The notes under the pieces are model-generated. The model was not told where the DNA came from. It saw only the letters and a list, made by a program, of their open reading frames with translations, and made no database searches. Positions 40,666-48,602 of a stretch of 64,000 nucleotides of DNA are shown here, one piece after another. The stretch is from Pseudomonadota bacterium. GTDB lineage: Bacteria; Pseudomonadota; Gammaproteobacteria; Xanthomonadales; Xanthomonadaceae. The stretch is from NCBI GenBank assembly GCA_018242485.1, contig JAFEBV010000017.1, forward strand, positions 1-64,000, in the 5' to 3' direction. Made by a program: the position numbers and the translations under genes. Within the stretch, counting starts at the first letter, position 1, and the number at the start of each line of letters is the position of its first letter.

Positions 40666-40965
40666 ATGGCAGCCCACACTTCGATGCTGCATGTCCGCGT
40701 CGACGAACACCTGAAATCGCAAGCCACCGAGGCGCTGGCCCAGATCGGTCTGACTGTCTCCGATGCGGTGCGTATCCTGCTGACGCGCGTCATCAGCGAA
40801 GGCGGTTTGCCCGCCGGCCTCACCGTCGATCCGCAGATCCACGATGCCTGGTTCCGCGCCAAGGTGCAGGAAGCTCTGGCCGATACGCGGCCGGCGATCC
40901 CGCATCGGCAAGCCATGAGCGAAGCGCAAGCGCTGATCGACAGGAAACGCCGTGCCCGTTCTTGA
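40666..40965 (+). CDS. relB: RelB/DinJ family antitoxin
   Basis: A 99-residue antitoxin with an N-terminal ribbon-helix-helix DNA-binding fold (MLHVRVDEHLKSQATEALAQ, then GLTVSDAVRILLTRVISEG) and a C-terminal toxin-binding helix rich in charged residues. Overlaps the downstream toxin by 14 nt. A palindromic operator precedes it. Two related sequences, one intact and one truncated, lie 0.6-1.8 kb downstream, so the family has duplicated in this island. Confidence 0.88.
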   Translation: MAAHTSMLHVRVDEHLKSQATEALAQIGLTVSDAVRILLTRVISEGGLPAGLTVDPQIHDAWFRAKVQEALADTRPAIPHRQAMSEAQALIDRKRRARS

Positions 40966-41239
40966 ATGGCGGGATGCGGCGCGCCTCGACCTGCTGGCGA
41001 TCGTCGATTACATCTCCGACGACAACCCCGACGCCGCACAGCGACTCAAGGATGACATCGAGGCGAAGGTATCGGCGTTGCCGGAACACCCCCGGCTGTA
41101 TCGAGCGGGACGCGTGCCCGGCACGCGGGAAATGGTGGTGCGCTCGAACTATGCCGTCGTCTATGCGGAAGATGCCTGCGCGGTGATCGTCCTGCGCGTG
41201 TTGCACGCGGCCCGGCAATGGCCACCGACGGCGGCGTGA
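40952..41239 (+). CDS. relE: RelE/ParE family toxin
   Basis: A 95-residue toxin. LEWRDAARLDLLAIVDYISD, HPRLYRAGRVPGTREMVV and VLRVLHAARQW are the family landmarks; the middle and end resemble the ParE/RelE branch that includes YafQ-like and plasmid-type toxins, so the target (mRNA at the ribosome or gyrase) is not certain. It starts with GTG inside the antitoxin gene, giving coupled translation. No frameshift is seen. Confidence 0.87.
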   Translation: MPVLEWRDAARLDLLAIVDYISDDNPDAAQRLKDDIEAKVSALPEHPRLYRAGRVPGTREMVVRSNYAVVYAEDACAVIVLRVLHAARQWPPTAA

Positions 41240-41245
41240 TCTTTT

Positions 41246-41503
41246 TCAGATGCCCAGATCCTTGAACAGCGCCTCTGCGCTGTCGAACCGCTTGCCCTTG
41301 CCTTCGTCCAGTTCCTTCATCGCCTTGCGCGTGGTCGCGTTGGGCACCCACATCTCGAACGGCAGCCCGCGCTCGTGCACCACCTTGGTCAGGCCGATGC
41401 GCACGAAATCGGAGACGGTCAGGCCCATCGCGGCCAGGATTTCGGTGGCCTCGTCCTTCAGGGTTTCGTCGATGCGTGCGCGGACGAATGCGTTGGCAGC
41501 CAT
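41246..41503 (-). CDS. Orphan RelB/DinJ-like antitoxin
   Basis: An 85-residue ribbon-helix-helix protein (MAANAFVRARIDETLKDEAT, then EILAAMGLTVSDFVRIGLTK) with a C-terminal segment (MWVPNATTRKAMKELDEGKG) resembling DinJ. No toxin gene follows: the frame ends 7 bp from the convergent relE stop. It may be a decayed locus, an antidote to a toxin elsewhere, or a repressor. A near-palindrome at 41533-41552 upstream is a possible own operator. Its first 29 codons are duplicated at 42331-42418. Confidence 0.82.
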   Translation of the reverse strand: MAANAFVRARIDETLKDEATEILAAMGLTVSDFVRIGLTKVVHERGLPFEMWVPNATTRKAMKELDEGKGKRFDSAEALFKDLGI

Positions 41504-41532
41504 GGCTTGCGCTCCGATCAATTGGCACACAA

Positions 41533-41552
41533 TGTAGCTCATTGGAGTTACA
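41533..41552 (-). promoter_or_regulatory. Near-palindromic operator of the orphan antitoxin
   Basis: TGTAGCTC / GAGTTACA arms with one mismatch and a 4-nt centre, 30 bp upstream of the start codon at 41503. Similar in size and position to the other TA operators in this island. Confidence 0.45.
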
Positions 41553-41623
41553 AGCTCAAAGTGCGGAGGAGGGATCCCGTCGATCCTGTGATCTACCATG
41601 CACCGGAAGGCGTCTCCCCAGAC

Positions 41624-41654
41624 TTGTTATGTATTGACATTTGGAGATACAATC
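41624..41654 (+). promoter_or_regulatory. Promoter/operator of brnT-brnA
   Basis: TTGTTA (41624-41629) and TACAAT (41649-41654) could be -35 and -10 boxes, though the 19-bp spacing is long. Arms TGTAT / ATACA (41630-41634 and 41647-41651) flank a 12-nt centre. The 11-mer GAGATACAATC is shared exactly with the relB-relE promoter. Confidence 0.45.
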
Positions 41655-41676
41655 GAGCCCGAGACGAGAACCCTGC

Positions 41677-41955
41677 ATGGAACTGGAATTCGAGTGGGAT
41701 GAGGACAAAGCTGCCACGAATCTAGCCAAGCACGGCGTCACCTTCCACACGGCGAGCCGTGTGTTTTTCGATCTTGAGCGCACCGACCGCCACGACGGCC
41801 GCGAGGACTACGGTGAAGACCGCTTCGTGACGGTGGGTCTTGTGGGAACGACGGAATTGATCGTGGCCTACACCATGCGTACCGATATCATCCGCATCAT
41901 TTCTGCCCGAAAGGCCGAACCTCATGAACAACGCGAATACTGGAAAAACCGTTAG
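41677..41955 (+). CDS. brnT: BrnT family toxin
   Basis: A 92-residue RelE-like ribonuclease toxin of the BrnT family. Landmarks are the N-terminal FEWDEDKAATNLAKHGVTFH, the GEDRFVTVGLV strand, and the C-terminal IIRIISARKAEPHEQREYW, which carries the basic active-site residues. In BrnTA modules the toxin comes first, as here. The ATG at 41677 is chosen for the family start; an upstream ATG at 41641 falls inside the promoter. Overlaps brnA by 32 nt. Confidence 0.93.
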   Translation: MELEFEWDEDKAATNLAKHGVTFHTASRVFFDLERTDRHDGREDYGEDRFVTVGLVGTTELIVAYTMRTDIIRIISARKAEPHEQREYWKNR

Positions 41956-42235
41956 CTTCACCCTCAACCAAGCCACCCCGTTGAGCGCCGAAGAGCTGGC
42001 GCAGCTTGCCGCACTGAAGCATCGGAAGATCGACACCAGCGACATACCTTCGAGTCCCGCCAGCGCCGTGTGGACGCGCCCCGGCATCCCCTTCCTGACC
42101 GAGAACAAACGGCAAATCTCGCTGCGCATCGACGCCGACGTGCTCGCCTTTTTCCGTGAATCCGGAAAGCGCTACCAGACGCGGATCAACAGTGTCCTGC
42201 GCGAGTACATGCGCGCGCATGCGCCGAAGACGTGA
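41924..42235 (+). CDS. brnA: BrnA family antitoxin
   Basis: A 103-residue antitoxin and autorepressor that wraps BrnT. The C-terminal ribbon-helix-helix domain is clear (KRQISLRIDADVLAFFRESG, RYQTRINSVLREYMRAH), and the N-terminal part supplies the toxin-neutralising region. It starts inside brnT (32-nt overlap). Length is typical and no defect is seen. Confidence 0.92.
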   Translation: MNNANTGKTVSFTLNQATPLSAEELAQLAALKHRKIDTSDIPSSPASAVWTRPGIPFLTENKRQISLRIDADVLAFFRESGKRYQTRINSVLREYMRAHAPKT

Positions 42236-42705: not shown

Positions 42706-43794
42706 CTACGGGGCTGGCGATGAATCGCGACAAATCGTGGGTCGATATTTGTTCGGAATGGTCGTGCCGGCCTCGCTGCCGCAGGCCCAACGCGTCGATC
42801 CATTGTCTCCCGTGGGTGCGAACCCGAGCACTTGGCCGACGATGGCGATATTGGCCTTGTTCCCGTAGCTGATGTGGATCGTGCCGTTGTCGATCTGCAC
42901 GGATGTCACATAGTTGCCGATGATGCTGGAGGCTTCGGCGACACCGGCCGAAGCGTTGTCCGGCGGGAAGTGGCCGGTGTTGGAATAGAACTCGGCCACG
43001 GCGGTCTTGCTACCTTCGGCAAGCGCCGTTCCTTCGGAAACCTGACTGCGGATCACGTAATCCTGATAGGCAGGTATGGCAATGGCCGCGAGAATCGCAA
43101 TACCCGGAATCGCAAGGCAGAAAACGACCACGCACGCGATCAGACAGCCCGACGTATTGAACTGCTGGCGTTCCGGATGGTCGGTGTACGCCCAACGATC
43201 CACCACCAGCGTACCGGCGATCATGTCGTGCAGTGCGCGTTTGCGGTCGGTGAAACCAGCCATCAGAAAGCCGATGTACAAGGTCGCGTACGAAAGCGCG
43301 CTGGCGAAGTAGCGGGCGAGCGCGCGGCCGAAACTCAATCGACCGCCCTGTTCGTCGGTTACCTTGATGCCCAGCGCGCGCTTGCCGAAGGTGGCCTGCT
43401 GAGCCGAGCTTTCCATCAAGGCGAAATACAGTGCCTTGATGGCAATGGCGATGACGAATCCAGTAAGTTGCCCGACGGCTTGCAGCGTGGCGGGATCGGA
43501 ATCCTTCATCGCGACGCCGAGCACGCCACCTGCCACGACAGCGATGACAATGATTGGAATGGCGAGAATCAATCCATCGATGAATAGCGCCGCGAAACGA
43601 CGCATGAAGCCGGCATAGACGATATTGACGGCGTTGCCAGCCGGAATGGGTTGCGGAGATGACGATGTCGTCTGCGACTGCCCCACCCATACCTGTTGCG
43701 CCGATGCAGCAGCGCTCGCGCCGACCGATGCCCCGCAAGCCGTACAAAAGCGCGTGCCGTCCGGGAGCTGTGTGCCGCATGCCATGCAGAACAT
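42706..43794 (-). CDS. Zinc ribbon - RDD - type IV pilin-like fusion protein
   Basis: A 362-residue three-part membrane protein. Residues 1-25 are a zinc ribbon (CMACG ... FCTACG). Residues about 60-195 form an RDD domain with three to four membrane helices (GFMRRFAALFIDGLILAIPI, TFGKRALGIKVTDEQGG). Residues about 215-360 look like a type IV pilin: helix CLAIPGIAILAAIAIPAYQ then DYVIRSQVSEG, and a globular part with a Cys pair (WACGSEAGTTIPNKYRPTIC). The prepilin cleavage site and Glu5 are missing, so the pilin part is probably a tethered domain rather than a fibre subunit. AGGAG lies just before the ATG. Function unknown. Confidence 0.82.
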   Translation of the reverse strand: MFCMACGTQLPDGTRFCTACGASVGASAAASAQQVWVGQSQTTSSSPQPIPAGNAVNIVYAGFMRRFAALFIDGLILAIPIIVIAVVAGGVLGVAMKDSDPATLQAVGQLTGFVIAIAIKALYFALMESSAQQATFGKRALGIKVTDEQGGRLSFGRALARYFASALSYATLYIGFLMAGFTDRKRALHDMIAGTLVVDRWAYTDHPERQQFNTSGCLIACVVVFCLAIPGIAILAAIAIPAYQDYVIRSQVSEGTALAEGSKTAVAEFYSNTGHFPPDNASAGVAEASSIIGNYVTSVQIDNGTIHISYGNKANIAIVGQVLGFAPTGDNGSTRWACGSEAGTTIPNKYRPTICRDSSPAP

Positions 43795-43823
43795 AAATTC
43801 TCCTTATGGAGCGGTTTGCTTTC

Positions 43824-44408
43824 CTAGCGCCTGATGTCCGCATCCACGCCATCGCCCCCTGGCTTGCCGTCGCGACCATAGCTCATCAAGTCGTAGGTGC
43901 CGTGGGTGCCGGGTACGCGGTATTCGAACGGATGGCCCCAGGGATCCTTCAGTTCGGATTCCTTGGCGTAAGGTCCGAGCCAGCCGTTCACGCCGCCGGG
44001 CGTGGTGACCAGCGCATCGAGGTTGGGCGGCAACGCGCCGGTATCGCTCTGGTACTGCTCGATCTTACTGGCGATGGAATCCACTTGAGTCTGCGCGAGG
44101 TGGTACTTGGCCTGATCGGCGGCCCCGGCAACACGGGCCACGATGAGATAAACAATCGGAATGCCGATCAAAATGGCGAAAGTTGCCATGCAGGCAATGA
44201 TGATGATCGCGACCCGGTATCCCGAACGTCGGCGCTGCTTCCGCTCTGGATGATGGCCGGCATTGGCAATGGCGTCCGCGCCGCTACCATGCACTGGCAC
44301 CCCCACCTGCTGTGCAGGCGCAGGTGCACCCTCGCCGACCGATGCCCCGCAAGCCGTACAAAAGCGTGTGCCGTCCGGAAGCTGTGTGCCGCATGCCATG
44401 CAGAACAT
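43824..44408 (-). CDS. Zinc ribbon protein with a GspG-like pseudopilin domain
   Basis: A 194-residue protein. Its first 25 residues are identical to those of the downstream RDD-pilin protein. After a basic linker and one membrane helix (about residues 65-90) comes a typical T2SS major-pseudopilin domain: ALPPNLDALVTTPGG, GWLGPYAKESELKDPWGHPF, YDLMSYGRDGKPGGDGVDAD. The last part includes the calcium-site region of GspG. The leader peptide expected by prepilin peptidase is absent, so it is unlikely to be an ordinary pseudopilin. GGAG precedes the ATG. Cotranscription with its neighbours is likely; function unknown. Confidence 0.85.
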   Translation of the reverse strand: MFCMACGTQLPDGTRFCTACGASVGEGAPAPAQQVGVPVHGSGADAIANAGHHPERKQRRRSGYRVAIIIIACMATFAILIGIPIVYLIVARVAGAADQAKYHLAQTQVDSIASKIEQYQSDTGALPPNLDALVTTPGGVNGWLGPYAKESELKDPWGHPFEYRVPGTHGTYDLMSYGRDGKPGGDGVDADIRR

Positions 44409-44487
44409 GGTTTCTCCTTCGTGGGTCTACGCTGGCTGCTGCCGGCGCCTCAAGCAAGCATCGATTGGGTGACTCGTGTTTCGTACC

Positions 44488-44877
44488 TCAATGTCGGGTG
44501 AAGAACGACATGTACAAAATCCCAATAAGCATGATCGTTCCGACAAGTCCCATGACGATGCCGAAGATCGCGCGTGGCTTGCCGGTCTTTTCCGGATGCT
44601 TGGCGATGTCGATGAGCGCGATGGTTCCGCACGCCAGCGACGCGGGAGCTGGCAGGACGAAGAAAGAAAAGAAGGCGAGGTAGCCTGCCGCGATGGCCCA
44701 ACCTGATCGCCCGATCGGCAATGCGATGCGCAGGGCCAGATCCGCTGCCGTCGAAGTGGCGGGCGGCGTCGCAGACGACGATTGAGGCGGTGGTCCATTC
44801 TGGCCCAGCGGGTGCCCGCATGCCGTGCAGAAGTGCGTGCCATCCTGGATTTGTGTCCCGCATGCTGCGCAATACAT
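44488..44877 (-). CDS. Zinc ribbon protein with DUF4190-like membrane domain
   Basis: A 129-residue protein: N-terminal zinc ribbon (CAACGTQIQDGTHFCTACG), Pro/Ser-rich linker, then two membrane helices around residues 58-80 and 100-123 with the DUF4190 signature PASLACGTIALIDIAKHPEK between them. DUF4190 proteins are small membrane proteins of unknown role. AGGGA precedes the ATG. Third zinc-ribbon gene in a row on the same strand. Confidence 0.8.
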   Translation of the reverse strand: MYCAACGTQIQDGTHFCTACGHPLGQNGPPPQSSSATPPATSTAADLALRIALPIGRSGWAIAAGYLAFFSFFVLPAPASLACGTIALIDIAKHPEKTGKPRAIFGIVMGLVGTIMLIGILYMSFFTRH

Positions 44878-44939
44878 GGGCTTCCCTTCGCGTTCTTATG
44901 CAGGTCGTGACAGGGTTCGTTGGTCGAAATCGTTTGTCT

Positions 44940-45170
44940 TCAGCGGGCAATCCATGCGTTTGCGAGCCCGGAGTCCGCCATTGCGATCCATTGCGGCAGG
45001 CCGTCGCGCCATACGAGGCTGTCCATCGTCAATTGCTGTCGTTCGAGCATCCCGCGCAGTTCACTGCCCGACACCGGGCCGTGCTGACTGCCGTCGGCAA
45101 GCGCGAAATGCCAGCCGGACTCGCCCGGATCGGGCGCGGGCAACGCCGCGATCGACGCGGCTGCCGGCAT
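44940..45170 (-). CDS. GYF_2-domain fragment
   Basis: A 76-residue frame with a GYF_2 domain (WHFALADGSQHGPVSGSELR, MLERQQLTMDSLVWRDGLPQW). This domain usually sits at an end of membrane proteins in Xanthomonadales. It overlaps the end of the TM2/SHOCT gene by 142 nt in another frame, so it is probably either a short gene read through by its neighbour or the C-terminal part of a TM2-SHOCT-GYF protein broken by a frameshift near 45170-45185. No good ribosome binding site was seen. Confidence 0.6.
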   Translation of the reverse strand: MPAAASIAALPAPDPGESGWHFALADGSQHGPVSGSELRGMLERQQLTMDSLVWRDGLPQWIAMADSGLANAWIAR

Positions 45171-45547
45171 GTCAACTCCCGCTTCTTCGCCTCGAATTCC
45201 GCCGACGTGATGTAGCCCTTGTCGCGCAGTCCGCCGAGGTGCTCGAGTTCTGCGTAGCGGTTTGGCGCCGAGGTCGCTTGCGGCGTCGGCATGATCGTAT
45301 GCACCACCACTTGCTGCTGTTGCTGCTGCATGGCCGGCGCAAGCACGAACGGCGCGTAGCGATGGTTGGCTACGTCAATGTGCTCGGGTATCAGTAGCAG
45401 GTCGATCAATTGCCCGATCCCCAACAGGCCGGCCGTGAATAACCACAACAACCCGCTACCGATACGCCCCGCATAGAAGCGATGCAGGCCGCACAGACCG
45501 ACGAAACAGCCGCACCACAGGAGATAGGCGATCGACTTTTCCTTCAT
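45029..45547 (-). CDS. TM2 and SHOCT domain membrane protein, C-terminus possibly frameshifted
   Basis: A 172-residue frame. Residues 1-60 are a TM2 domain (IAYLLWCGCFVGLCGLHRFY, AGRIGSGLLWLFTAGLLGIG). A glutamine run (MQQQQQQ) and then a SHOCT motif follow (ELEHLGGLRDKGYITSAEFEAKKREL). The remaining 45 residues, rich in Arg and Cys, are the GYF-coding sequence read in another frame, so the natural protein probably ends soon after the SHOCT motif or continues into the GYF domain. Confidence 0.7.
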   Translation of the reverse strand: MKEKSIAYLLWCGCFVGLCGLHRFYAGRIGSGLLWLFTAGLLGIGQLIDLLLIPEHIDVANHRYAPFVLAPAMQQQQQQVVVHTIMPTPQATSAPNRYAELEHLGGLRDKGYITSAEFEAKKRELTCRQPRRSRRCPRPIRASPAGISRLPTAVSTARCRAVNCAGCSNDSN

Positions 45548-45590
45548 GACACCCCTCGGACTGCGATTGACTCTGACCAGACCGCATCCG

Positions 45591-46244
45591 CTACATGCTC
45601 GCCGCGACCACCTGCATTGGTACCTGGGTGTCGCGCACGTCCTGCCCGTTCACGTAAAGACTGGTCTTGAATTGGTACATGCCTTCCTTCACGCCCTTGG
45701 GCAGGTTGAGCGCCACGCTGGTCTGGAAGGCGCCCGCCGATGCGCCCTGACTGGCCGGTTTGCGGAAAGTCTTCTGCGTCTTGCCGTCCGGATCGACGAG
45801 TGAAAACTCCTGCTCGACGGTGGGCTGCACGCCGTCGCTGCCCTGCGTCACCTCGATGTCGGAGACGAGATTCGACTCCACGCCGGGGTGCACCGCGCCC
45901 GCCGGATCCAGCCGGGTCTGGTAGGCGACCACTTCCGCGTGCTCCGGCAGATTGCCGCCGTTGGCGTTCTGGTAGTCCTGCGCAGCCTGTTGCGCGGTCT
46001 TCACCTGCTTGGCGTGGTAGTTGATCGCCATGCAGGCGATGGCACCCACCGCACCGCCGACCACCGCACCCTCGGCGCGATGGTGCTTGCCGCCGAGCAG
46101 GGCACCGAGTACGGCGCCGCCGACCGCCGCGCCGCCGGTGTTGCAGGGCTTGTCGTCGGATGCGCGGGCGACGTTCGGTACCGTCGAGCCAAAGGTCATG
46201 GCGATGGCGAGCGTGGACGCGACGGCGAGGGATGCGATTTTCAT
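45591..46244 (-). CDS. Glycine-zipper outer-envelope protein
   Basis: A 217-residue secreted protein with a signal peptide (about residues 1-28) and a glycine-zipper region (GGAAVGGAVLGALLGG, then EGAVVGGAVGAIACMAI) that can form a membrane-inserting hairpin. The C-terminal half is a beta-rich domain (VQPTVEQEFSLVDPDGKTQK, KGVKEGMYQFKTSLYVNGQ) without a known name. It lies 13 bp after the upstream zinc-ribbon gene, so it probably belongs to the same transcript. Confidence 0.75.
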   Translation of the reverse strand: MKIASLAVASTLAIAMTFGSTVPNVARASDDKPCNTGGAAVGGAVLGALLGGKHHRAEGAVVGGAVGAIACMAINYHAKQVKTAQQAAQDYQNANGGNLPEHAEVVAYQTRLDPAGAVHPGVESNLVSDIEVTQGSDGVQPTVEQEFSLVDPDGKTQKTFRKPASQGASAGAFQTSVALNLPKGVKEGMYQFKTSLYVNGQDVRDTQVPMQVVAASM

Positions 46245-46257
46245 GGACGTGTCTCCT

Positions 46258-47818
46258 TCAGTGGATGTCGATGTTGTTCATCGCCTGCGACTGAGCGGCC
46301 TGCGCGCGTGCGCGTAACGCTTCGGCCGCGCGGTAGCCGGGTTTGATGCGCAGCGCGTTGCCGGCATTGGTGATGGCGCAGGTGTAGTCCTGGCGGTCGA
46401 AGCACGCTTGGCCGTCGGTGAGCATCTGCCGCGCGGCGTCGTCGATGCCGCTGCGCTGCGGGGCCTGCGGCTGCGCGGCTTGAACGCGCGGTGGTGGTGC
46501 TGCCGGTGGTTGTGGCGGCGGAGCAGGTGGTTCCTGCGCAGTCGTCGTGGGTGCTACGGGGCTCGCCGCCGTGTTCGTGGTCGCATCGGCAGGCGTTTCC
46601 TCGACCGACGGACATGACATGCCACCTTCTTCAGGTGTTGGACTGGATTGGCTGGCGATGGTCTTGAAGTGGGTGCCGTCCCAAACGACTGCTTCGCTGT
46701 GACAGGCAGTGCCGTCCCAATAACTGACTTTCAGCAGGCTGCTGTTGGGCTTGTAGGCGAGGCCGAGATTCGTCTGGTTTTCACCGCCATAACCCAGCTC
46801 GCGGACGCCGCCGTTACGCTCATCGACCATGTACCCCATCAGGCATTCCGCTCCGCAGCCGAACGTGACGATGGCGTAATGGCCGGCAAAATTCACTCCC
46901 GACTGTGCGCCCGCGGCGAGACGCGTACGGTATTCCCGGTAGGCCCTCTCCGTGCCGTTGAAGTCCGGCATCACCACCGGGCCGGTGTAGGGAGCAGCGG
47001 CGTACCGTTCGAAGGCGATGCCCGCGACCGTCGGCGAACCCGGGTTGGGCGTGGACGCAGGGCTTTCCTGCGCGGCTGACGCGAGGGCAGGAGACGCAGG
47101 AGCGGACGCAGCCGAGGACGCGGGTGCCACGGCAGGGCTCGCGGCGGCCGATGCACTGGACGGGCTCGCATCGGATACCGTGGCGGCCGATGGGCTCGCG
47201 TGCTGCGACCAGTACCAGTATCCGCCTCCTCCCGCGATGCCCAGCACGAGCACGGTGCCCAAGCCGATCCACAGCGGCGCGGAGGAACTTTTTTTCGGAA
47301 CCGGCCTTGATGCGCTGCCGCCGTTGCCGGGCAGCACGGGTGCCGGGGGCGACGGCCGGGAAGCGGCAGACGCTGCCGCCGATGGCATGACCATCGTCGG
47401 TGCGGGCGCAGGTGGCACGGGCTGTGCCGGGATGCGTGGCGGCGGCGGTGGCGACATCGCCGGCGGAGAAGCCGAAGGTGCCGCACGCGGCGGCAAGGGC
47501 GGTGTTGCTGGCGGCGGTGCGGGCGCAGGCGGTGCAGGCGGAGCGGGCGCTACCGGTAGCGGTGCGGGTGACGGTGAAATCGTTGGCGGCAGGTCAGCCG
47601 GCGGCAGCGGTACCTGCGGTGTTACGGCAGGTGGAGCGGAATCAATCGCCGCGAGCTGCGGTGGCGAAGGCGGTACGGGTCGCGGCGGTGGTGGCGCGGG
47701 GGGGGGGCGTCGGCGCGTTCGCGGGAGGCATCGGTGACGCCGGTGCGACGGCCTTGCCGCATTTGGCGCAAAAACGCACGCCGGGCGCTATGGTGAACCC
47801 GCATTGCCCGCAGAACAT
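46258..47818 (-). pseudogene. Zinc ribbon/proline-rich membrane protein split at a poly-G tract (possibly phase-variable)
   Basis: The downstream frame (46258-47496, 412 residues) begins in the middle of a proline-rich linker. It has one membrane helix (APLWIGLGTVLVLGIAGGGG), a Ser/Ala-rich linker, an unnamed secreted domain (NFAGHYAIVTFGCGAECLMG) and a C-terminal TPR-like helical region. A zinc-ribbon start, MFCGQCGFTIAPGVRFCAKC, lies at 47818 in the neighbouring frame and stops at 47642 (58 residues). The two frames meet at a run of ten G on the plus strand (47698-47707). With nine or twelve G, one uninterrupted protein of about 520 residues would be read, with the same zinc-ribbon/Pro-rich plan as its neighbours. 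Confidence 0.75.
47698..47707. repeat. Ten-G homopolymer inside a coding frame
   Basis: Longest mononucleotide run noticed in the window. It lies exactly where the zinc-ribbon frame and the proline-rich frame of the same gene meet, making it a candidate slipped-strand site (or a length-calling error). Confidence 0.9.
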
Positions 47819-48127: not shown

Positions 48128-48310
48128 ATGGGTGCCGCGTTCAAGCAGGAAGCCCACCAGCTGATCGACGCCTTGCCGGACACGGCTGGATGGGAAGATC
48201 TGGCCGAACAGGTCGAAACCATGCTTGACCTGCGTGCCGGGTTGGCCGACAGCGCGGCTGACCGCGTGATCGACAACGCCCAGGTGCGGGCCGAGTTCGG
48301 CTTGCGATGA
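48128..48310 (+). CDS. ParD-like antitoxin (small addiction-module protein)
   Basis: A 60-residue acidic helical protein (FKQEAHQLIDALPDTAGWED, RAGLADSAADRVIDNAQVRAEFG). No N-terminal ribbon-helix-helix is obvious, but size, ATGA overlap with the next gene and the FG(L)R ending are typical of antitoxins paired with ParE-type toxins. The chosen ATG is preceded by GAGG. The partner toxin appears frameshifted. Confidence 0.7.
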   Translation: MGAAFKQEAHQLIDALPDTAGWEDLAEQVETMLDLRAGLADSAADRVIDNAQVRAEFGLR

Positions 48311-48602
48311 AGGTCGTCTGGACACATCGCGCCAAGGCTCGCTTGCATCCGATCCATCACTACATCGCCAAGGATCAGCCGTTGAATGCCGACCGCGTTG
48401 TCGATCGGCTGACGAGCCGGGTGACGCAATTGGCCGAGCATCCGCGCTCGGGGCGCATCGTCGAAGGCTATCGGCGTGAGGATTTGCGCGAACTGATCGA
48501 AGCGCCGTACCGGATCATCTACCGGTCGGGTTCGAGCGCATCGACATCCTGACTGCGCGTGACTCGCGGCGCATGCTGCCGCGGCGGCTGGACGATCTGT
48601 AG
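48307..48602 (+). pseudogene. ParE family toxin with a C-terminal frameshift
   Basis: The N-terminal 70 residues are a normal ParE/RelE-like toxin (VVWTHRAKARLHPIHHYIAK, QLAEHPRSGRIVEGYRREDL, RELIEAPYRIIYR). The frame then diverges and stops at 48552. In the adjacent frame the expected family ending follows at once (GFERIDILTARDSRRMLPRR, then LDDL and a stop at 48600-48602). One missing base near 48526 explains this. The encoded protein is probably inactive unless the base is a sequencing error. Confidence 0.8.

Follow-up and report, generated by a model that had tools for sequence, protein, structure and literature searches.

The closest described counterparts of the locus analyzed here are the XAC3805-type proteins of Xanthomonadaceae, in which a cytosolic DUF4339 (GYF_2) adaptor is joined through a transmembrane (TM) segment to a leaderless pilin head, with an RDD domain either fused or present in an adjacent GYF_2-RDD protein. 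Such leaderless pilin-like proteins have been reported as probably not genuine pilins of type IV pili (T4P) (PMC10333488, PMC4960238). So far, they have been dismissed as odd annotations. TcaA of S. aureus, Llmg_0524 and Llmg_0526 of L. lactis and YdjG of B. subtilis share another layout, namely an N-terminal zinc ribbon, a TM segment and an extracytoplasmic domain (PMC4628341, PMC8581546, PMC11237479). Llmg_0524 and Llmg_0526 are zinc binders, and Llmg_0524 has been linked to wall integrity (PMC4628341); YdjG, with zinc ribbons, is required for PspA recruitment (PMC8581546, PMC11237479). Also relevant are GspG, the major pseudopilin of the type II secretion system (T2SS), and GltJ (AgmX) of Myxococcus xanthus. 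GltJ has a cytosolic zinc finger alongside its GYF domain.

We analyzed a stretch of 64,000 nucleotides (the window), whose minus strand carries the six genes of a small cluster at positions 47818-42706. Four of them encode an N-terminal zinc ribbon, which is attached to a Pro-rich membrane protein (g1), to DUF4190 (g4), to a GspG head (g5) or to RDD plus a PilA head (g6). These four are the only matches to Zn_Ribbon_1 above the Pfam cut-off in the whole 2.8 Mb genome, and their grouping is therefore beyond chance. A first-pass annotation had described genes on one strand that combine zinc ribbons with differing modules, and the Pfam matches, all on the minus strand, agree with this description. 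Taken as a whole, its observation was partly confirmed, and its interpretation is partly supported. The intergenic gaps, all on a single strand, are 13-79 nt. Terminator-like sites were not found between the cluster genes, the number of such sites not being above chance, and a promoter scan gave nothing exceeding chance. The six genes most likely form one operon.

The product of g5 (44408-43824, minus strand) consists of a zinc ribbon, a charged linker, one TM helix and a GspG head (about 44120-43827). That of g6 (43794-42706, minus strand) consists of a zinc ribbon, RDD (43617-43213), a non-cleavable TM helix and a PilA head (43050-42727). Pfam thus recovers what had been read at these genes, i.e., a zinc ribbon with a GspG pseudopilin (Zn_Ribbon_1 and T2SSG, 2.5e-29) and one with RDD and a type IV pilin (Zn_Ribbon_1, RDD at 1.4e-26 and Pilin at 9.4e-24). 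The claim that the pilin-like parts lack prepilin cleavage sites also stands: the N_methyl profile has ten matches in the genome and none on the cluster. In the alignment, VVVFCLAIPGI stands where LIELMIVVAII would be expected; the class III leader and Glu5 are absent. Because the prepilin signal and this conserved Glu5 are missing, the pilin-like parts do not match what is expected of subunits in a normal pilus or T2SS, as had been proposed. None of the adaptor-pilin fusions that we tallied has a leader.

Sequence comparisons and trees indicate that both heads are captured copies from within the genus, one of its major pilin and the other of its major T2SS pseudopilin. The g5 head and the host's own GspG share about 81% identity, and the tree of the head places it inside the GspGs of the genus (97/94), adjoining the GspG of the host and those of two relatives (G025 and G068). 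Compared with the host's GspG it has a dN of 0.12 and a dS of 0.61, and is under constraint. It scores 78 bits against the TIGR01710 equivalog model, which is under the cut-off of 88.85, and keeps the D-rich C-terminal loop of GspG; unlike GspG, g5 has no leader and no Glu5, is held by a zinc-ribbon anchor and does not lie in a gsp operon. For g6, the trees of its two modules disagree. The head falls within the PilA clade of the genus (100/96), whereas the heads of other RDD-pilin proteins form a separate clade (99/95); the RDD part lies among RDD-pilin proteins (100/98), near the sole other ZnR-RDD-pilin protein (98/82). The g6 head retains the paired C-terminal cysteines of the pilin D-region. 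The zinc ribbon of g5 and g6 has been duplicated, with only 2 of 75 DNA sites differing, both silently, and with identical ribbon proteins.

The first-pass annotation had presented g1 as a Pro-rich zinc-ribbon gene with an unnamed secreted domain. These parts exist, but they do not share a single open frame. The 5' part (47818-47656, minus strand) encodes the zinc ribbon (MFCGQCG...RFCAKCG; Zn_Ribbon_1 4.6e-6, over the cut-off) and the start of a Pro-rich linker, and its frame parts from that of the remainder at a C10 homopolymer (47707-47698), one of only three C or G runs of at least 10 in the genome. The open frame of the remainder (47697-46258) covers a Pro-rich segment, a TM helix (about 47283-47217), the secreted domain and C-terminal TPR-like helices. 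The order of ribbon, TM helix and extracytoplasmic domain is therefore found directly in g5 but in g1 only across the frame change. A homologue in a relative from the genus (G095) is intact and 52% identical. The secreted domain (47040-46606; motif NFAGHY...FGCG..C) has no match in Pfam, NCBIfam or PDB sequences, and a single-sequence model of it reached a pLDDT of only 43; distant relatives occur in three other Gammaproteobacteria among 369 searched.

Between g1 and g5, the glycine-zipper protein that had been noted among the cluster genes is present as g2 (46244-45591, minus strand), with Pfam likeness to glycine zippers below the cut-off. It has a signal sequence and, judging from a single-sequence model (pLDDT 70) whose structural matches are Ig-like, probably an Ig-like beta-sandwich domain. 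Its orthologues, 42-48% identical, occur in three genomes of the genus labelled g5, each adjoining a zinc-ribbon cluster. A single TM2/SHOCT/GYF gene had been reported next to it. The frame of g3 (45547-45029, minus strand) does contain TM2 (residues 2-50, 6e-16) and SHOCT (99-125, 9e-7), and its final 45 or so codons look like out-of-frame sequence. GYF_2 (1.5e-12) lies instead in a separate 76-codon frame, g3b (45170-44940, minus strand), which overlaps the end of the g3 frame and has its own start, with the Shine-Dalgarno sequence GGGAG 5 nt before the ATG. Among PDB sequences, g3b comes nearest to the AgmX GYF domain of M. xanthus (7z3c, 9e-5), its closest solved relative; in GltJ/AgmX, zinc finger and GYF domain share a protein, whereas here two different proteins carry the ribbon and GYF_2, and a gliding machinery is not implied. 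The zinc ribbon with DUF4190 (1.1e-9; two TM helices) that had been assigned to g4 (44877-44488, minus strand) was found there by Pfam. Given that the frame is changed in two genes of the cluster in this assembly (g1 and g3), part of the cluster may be decaying.

Leaderless GYF_2-RDD-pilin proteins form a widespread family in Lysobacteraceae, and the RDD part of g6 is a member of it. Separate tandem genes for GYF-pilin and then GYF-RDD, kin of XAC3805, occur at nine other loci and so link the two modules independently of the present cluster. Where this family has an N-terminal GYF_2, g6 has a zinc ribbon, and the same swap is seen in G051. The cluster is thus a case of a zinc ribbon substituting for GYF_2 as the adaptor. 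It differs from the XAC3805 type also in that the head comes from the genus's PilA and that a GspG-headed sister lies in the same zinc-ribbon cluster. As a combination the cluster is new; its pieces were already known. The suggestion that these architectures co-occur in relatives held in part: across 30 genomes of the family, 24 of the 54 zinc-ribbon genes that we counted lie within 6 kb of another, but the exact set of genes is preserved nowhere, and we dropped the idea that it is conserved. What recurs elsewhere, in varied combinations, is limited to the RDD-pilin, Pro-rich and glycine-zipper proteins and a tendency to cluster. In the homologous cluster of G095, ZnR-polyPro(36+6)-TM proteins alternate with GYF_2-TM proteins, and GYF_2 next to a polyPro-ZnR protein was seen at only two loci, that one and the one in the window.

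Our preferred reading, which we hold tentatively, is that the cluster encodes a modular scaffold in the inner membrane that combines cytosolic adaptors with periplasmic, non-polymerizing heads. Every product would face the cytosol with an adaptor or a part that binds peptides (a zinc ribbon, the stand-alone GYF_2, the Pro-rich linker or SHOCT) and would have one to four TM helices, and g1, g5 and g6 would additionally bear a periplasmic head. In g5 and g6, the heads are soluble parts of the host's own GspG and PilA, moved onto non-cleavable anchors, and would thus be fixed in the membrane and unable to polymerize. The near-identical ribbon of these two proteins could serve as a transferable tag that brings different heads into one assembly, and GYF_2 might hold partners through their polyproline linkers. 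The resulting membrane patch would read or organize periplasmic events, such as pilus or T2SS assembly, or the state of the wall. A more specific version seems improbable to us, in which the ribbon tag recruits fixed PilA and GspG heads that sense or govern both T4P and T2SS assembly, slippage in the C-tract switches the Pro-rich member on and off, and the GYF_2 adaptor holds that member.

Other explanations must be weighed against this scaffold. The strong Pilin and T2SSG matches might suggest regular subunits of the T4P or T2SS in which just the N-termini are unusual, but we consider this extremely improbable: N_methyl matches and Glu5 are lacking, the N-termini are polytopic or zinc-ribbon, and the genes lie outside pil and gsp operons, with complete-looking PilA and GspG genes elsewhere in the genome. 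It is unlikely, though worth considering, that the fixed heads act as mimics or decoys, binding T4P or T2SS partners to tune or block filaments while the zinc ribbon signals occupancy inward; candidate partners are minor pilins, the platform, the secretin or substrates. Both heads derive from the major subunit of their system in the host's own lineage, and they have lost Glu5 and the cleavage site yet kept the D-region cysteines and the D-rich loop. Within the genus, PilA heads were also captured once more, this time onto a lipoprotein (own copy in L189). However, most contacts may have disappeared along with the N-terminal helix face, and outside the genus leaderless GYF-RDD-pilin proteins have heads distant from every PilA, which means that imitation of the host's own pilin is no general feature of the family.

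An envelope-stress sensor of the TcaA/YdjG type, whose heads would sense wall or membrane damage and whose ribbons would recruit cytosolic effectors, is by analogy an unlikely reading. The architecture described above for those proteins favors it, as does the C-terminus of the G095 homologue of g1, where a domain weakly resembles LprI (0.031, under the cut-off). The heads here are GspG, PilA and an unnamed domain, however; the match of g4 to the TcaA model is no more than marginal (E 0.023; 13.5 bits, where the cut-off is 550), and no PspA or SPFH gene was recognized adjoining the cluster. Moreover, rpoH lies 1 kb from the cluster but not beside zinc-ribbon clusters in relatives, and since other neighbors flank rpoH in three relatives of the genus, we dropped a tie to this gene. 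We judge it rather improbable that the genes are paralogues of an accessory island without joint function, produced when a ribbon-bearing 5' segment recombined before pilin and pseudopilin duplicates and since partly broken. The cluster is indeed accessory: it sits at a synteny break with toxin-antitoxin-like genes on both sides and lower G+C, and no cluster lies at the equivalent place beside rpoH or cphA in G025, G068 and G095, one of which has a diverged version elsewhere. The two frame changes also fit an island. Yet the constraint on the g5 head, the identical ribbon proteins of g5 and g6, the family-wide clustering of zinc-ribbon genes and the linkage of RDD and pilin modules at nine other loci all argue against a lack of joint function.

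The trees show that host pilin and pseudopilin heads have repeatedly been captured onto fixed anchors with cytosolic adaptors, with RDD proteins as recurrent partners. The GYF_2/RDD/pilin family of Lysobacteraceae thereby gains a testable shape, as a scaffold or regulator rather than a pilus subunit, with concrete partners named. Likeness to the defense system PD-T4-6 in PADLOC is limited to the RDD part of g6, and we did not accept this assignment. A plasmid search revealed no carrier: g2 had no match, and g6 matched only in part, through RDD or pilin. The host of the cluster is an uncultured relative of Xanthomonas, and the gene content of the cluster varies between species.

The cluster lies on the minus strand of the window and consists of g1 (47818-46258), g2 (46244-45591), g3 (45547-45029), g4 (44877-44488), g5 (44408-43824) and g6 (43794-42706), with gaps of 13, 43, 62, 79 and 29 nt in that order. 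A purine-rich stretch precedes the start of every gene. No terminator-like site was found between cluster genes, and the count of such sites is not above chance. Given these short gaps, purine-rich stretches and lack of intergenic terminator-like sites, we consider it likely that g1-g6 form one operon. The domains named in the first-pass annotation of g1, g3, g4, g5 and g6 (zinc ribbons joined to pilin, pseudopilin and other modules) were borne out by Pfam. Its observation that prepilin signals are missing also holds, as all 10 N_methyl N-termini in the genome lie outside the cluster. No zinc ribbon outside the cluster scores above cut-off in this genome; all four that do lie within it.

The host genome (2.8 Mb, 44 contigs, 99.95% complete) is placed by its neighbours in the Xanthomonas/Lysobacter/Rhodanobacter group; its genus relatives in the compared set are uncultured. 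It is probably a metagenome assembly, in which indel errors are possible. The Pro-rich gene g1 had been taken as one open frame, but in fact two frames meet at a run of ten C: one encodes the zinc ribbon, and the other the Pro-rich, TM and secreted domains and C-terminal helices. The genome contains three runs of at least 10 C/G, the other two being on contigs C4 (88855-88864) and C12 (55609-55618). The one full homologue of g1, in the genus relative G095 (locus L129:6803-8203), is one intact frame with 36 + 6 consecutive prolines, in mixed CCN codons, before its TM helix. Since this homologue is intact while the window copy changes frame, the state of g1 reflects phase variation, breakage or an error of assembly. 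Of a proposed TM2/SHOCT/GYF gene, TM2-SHOCT stands as g3, but GYF_2 (Pfam) occupies a separate overlapping frame, g3b (45170-44940, minus), which starts at an ATG with an SD of its own. The TM2-SHOCT frame has a tail resembling sequence read out of frame.

The soluble head of g5 shares ~81% identity with the T2SS GspG of its own genome. Over the matching stretch, identity is 64-76% with the GspGs of genus relatives and, for GspGs from other genera, mostly 40-60%. In our trees, which rest on short domains, this head falls within the genus GspG clade (97/94), sister to the GspGs of the host and the relatives G068 and G025 (94/86). Comparison of the g5 head with own GspG gives dN 0.12 and dS 0.61. 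Because the host and G025 GspG proteins are the same across the head, the changes are assigned to the g5 branch, which shows moderate constraint. The leader and N-terminal half of the GspG helix are replaced in g5. Over the first 75 nt, g5 and g6 differ at only 2 positions, both silent, so a 5' segment bearing the ribbon was either copied between them recently or converted; g4 differs from both at 20-22 positions and g1 at 33-34.

The pilin identity of g6 starts mid-helix (IAILAAIAIPAYQDY...), with leader and Glu5 missing. Its head falls within the genus PilA clade (100/96), next to the heads of a lipoprotein found in this genus (99/97), whereas heads of other RDD-pilin proteins form a separate clade (99/95). 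The RDD of g6, in contrast, groups among RDD-pilin proteins (100/98), near that of the only other ZnR-RDD-pilin found, in genome G051 (98/82). The two halves therefore differ in history: the head was swapped onto an RDD-pilin frame that is older. A 719-aa protein elsewhere in the genome (L189:3259-5418; contig C4, ~109.7 kb), adjoining dnaK/dnaJ, has a lipobox-like start (LAGC) and a leaderless PilA head at its end. Conserved counterparts exist in genus relatives (L032, L034) and in Rhodanobacter sp. L36 (L089). Here a PilA head has been captured for a second time, by a carrier that is not a pilin.

The favoured reading, though somewhat short of an even chance, is that the cluster encodes a modular inner-membrane scaffold, in which cytosolic adaptors would be combined with periplasmic non-polymerising heads. 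GYF domains in eukaryotes bind proline-rich peptides. Among solved sequences, g3b comes closest to the M. xanthus AgmX GYF domain (7z3c), and g1 and its G095 homologue have polyproline linkers ahead of the TM; by analogy, g3b might bind such linkers here. In a weak single-sequence structure model, g2 is predicted to be Ig-like. Elsewhere, zinc-ribbon TM proteins are zinc-binding and have roles in wall integrity or PspA recruitment (PMC4628341, PMC8581546, PMC11237479). Two candidate readings, of the proteins as mimics or regulators and as a stress sensor, are special cases of this scaffold. Alternatively, the cluster may be an island whose paralogues are unlinked. Of 54 zinc-ribbon genes counted in 30 family genomes, 24 have another within 6 kb, an undercount under our merging rule, where random placement of two to seven genes per ~3 Mb genome predicts only a few per cent.

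The cluster is accessory. No zinc-ribbon cluster lies beside rpoH/cphA in G025, G068 or G095, where the rpoH neighbours differ and cphA is on another contig. On either side of the cluster (40666-42235 and 48128-48552) are several small gene pairs of toxin-antitoxin-like character, and G025 has one such pair after rpoH.

RDD/pilin homologues occur in 147 of 149 family genomes, the majority being pilins or GYF_2-RDD proteins. A tandem of GYF-pilin and GYF-RDD genes, at 9 loci including Xanthomonas, is the unfused form of the g6-type fusion, and genome G041 (L142) has a ZnR-pilin without RDD. In our tally of adaptor-bearing ORFs, in which some loci overlap, no pilin-headed ORF has a leader. The DUF4339 pilin-like protein XAC3805 of X. 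citri is reported to be without a prepilin leader and, in all probability, no true pilin (PMC10333488, PMC4960238). The G095 homologue of g1 is followed by genes for GYF_2-TM, ZnR-Pro-TM and GYF_2-TM proteins. Orthologues of g2 (42-48%) occur in three genomes of another genus (handle g5, distinct from gene g5), each adjoined by a zinc-ribbon cluster; in the one fully read, a 4xZnR-TM protein has a C-terminus like that of g1. A recurrent cluster at L132:5339-10680 (genome G056), L133, L134 and L136 encodes polytopic proteins with C-terminal zinc ribbons as well as a multi-ZnR-TM protein that carries a secreted domain; all but L136 also encode a g2-like glycine-zipper protein. At L131:6405-17535 (genome G081), five zinc-ribbon genes are adjacent to short lipoprotein-like proteins with the common motif CSVDTDCMINRVCDGGQCK.
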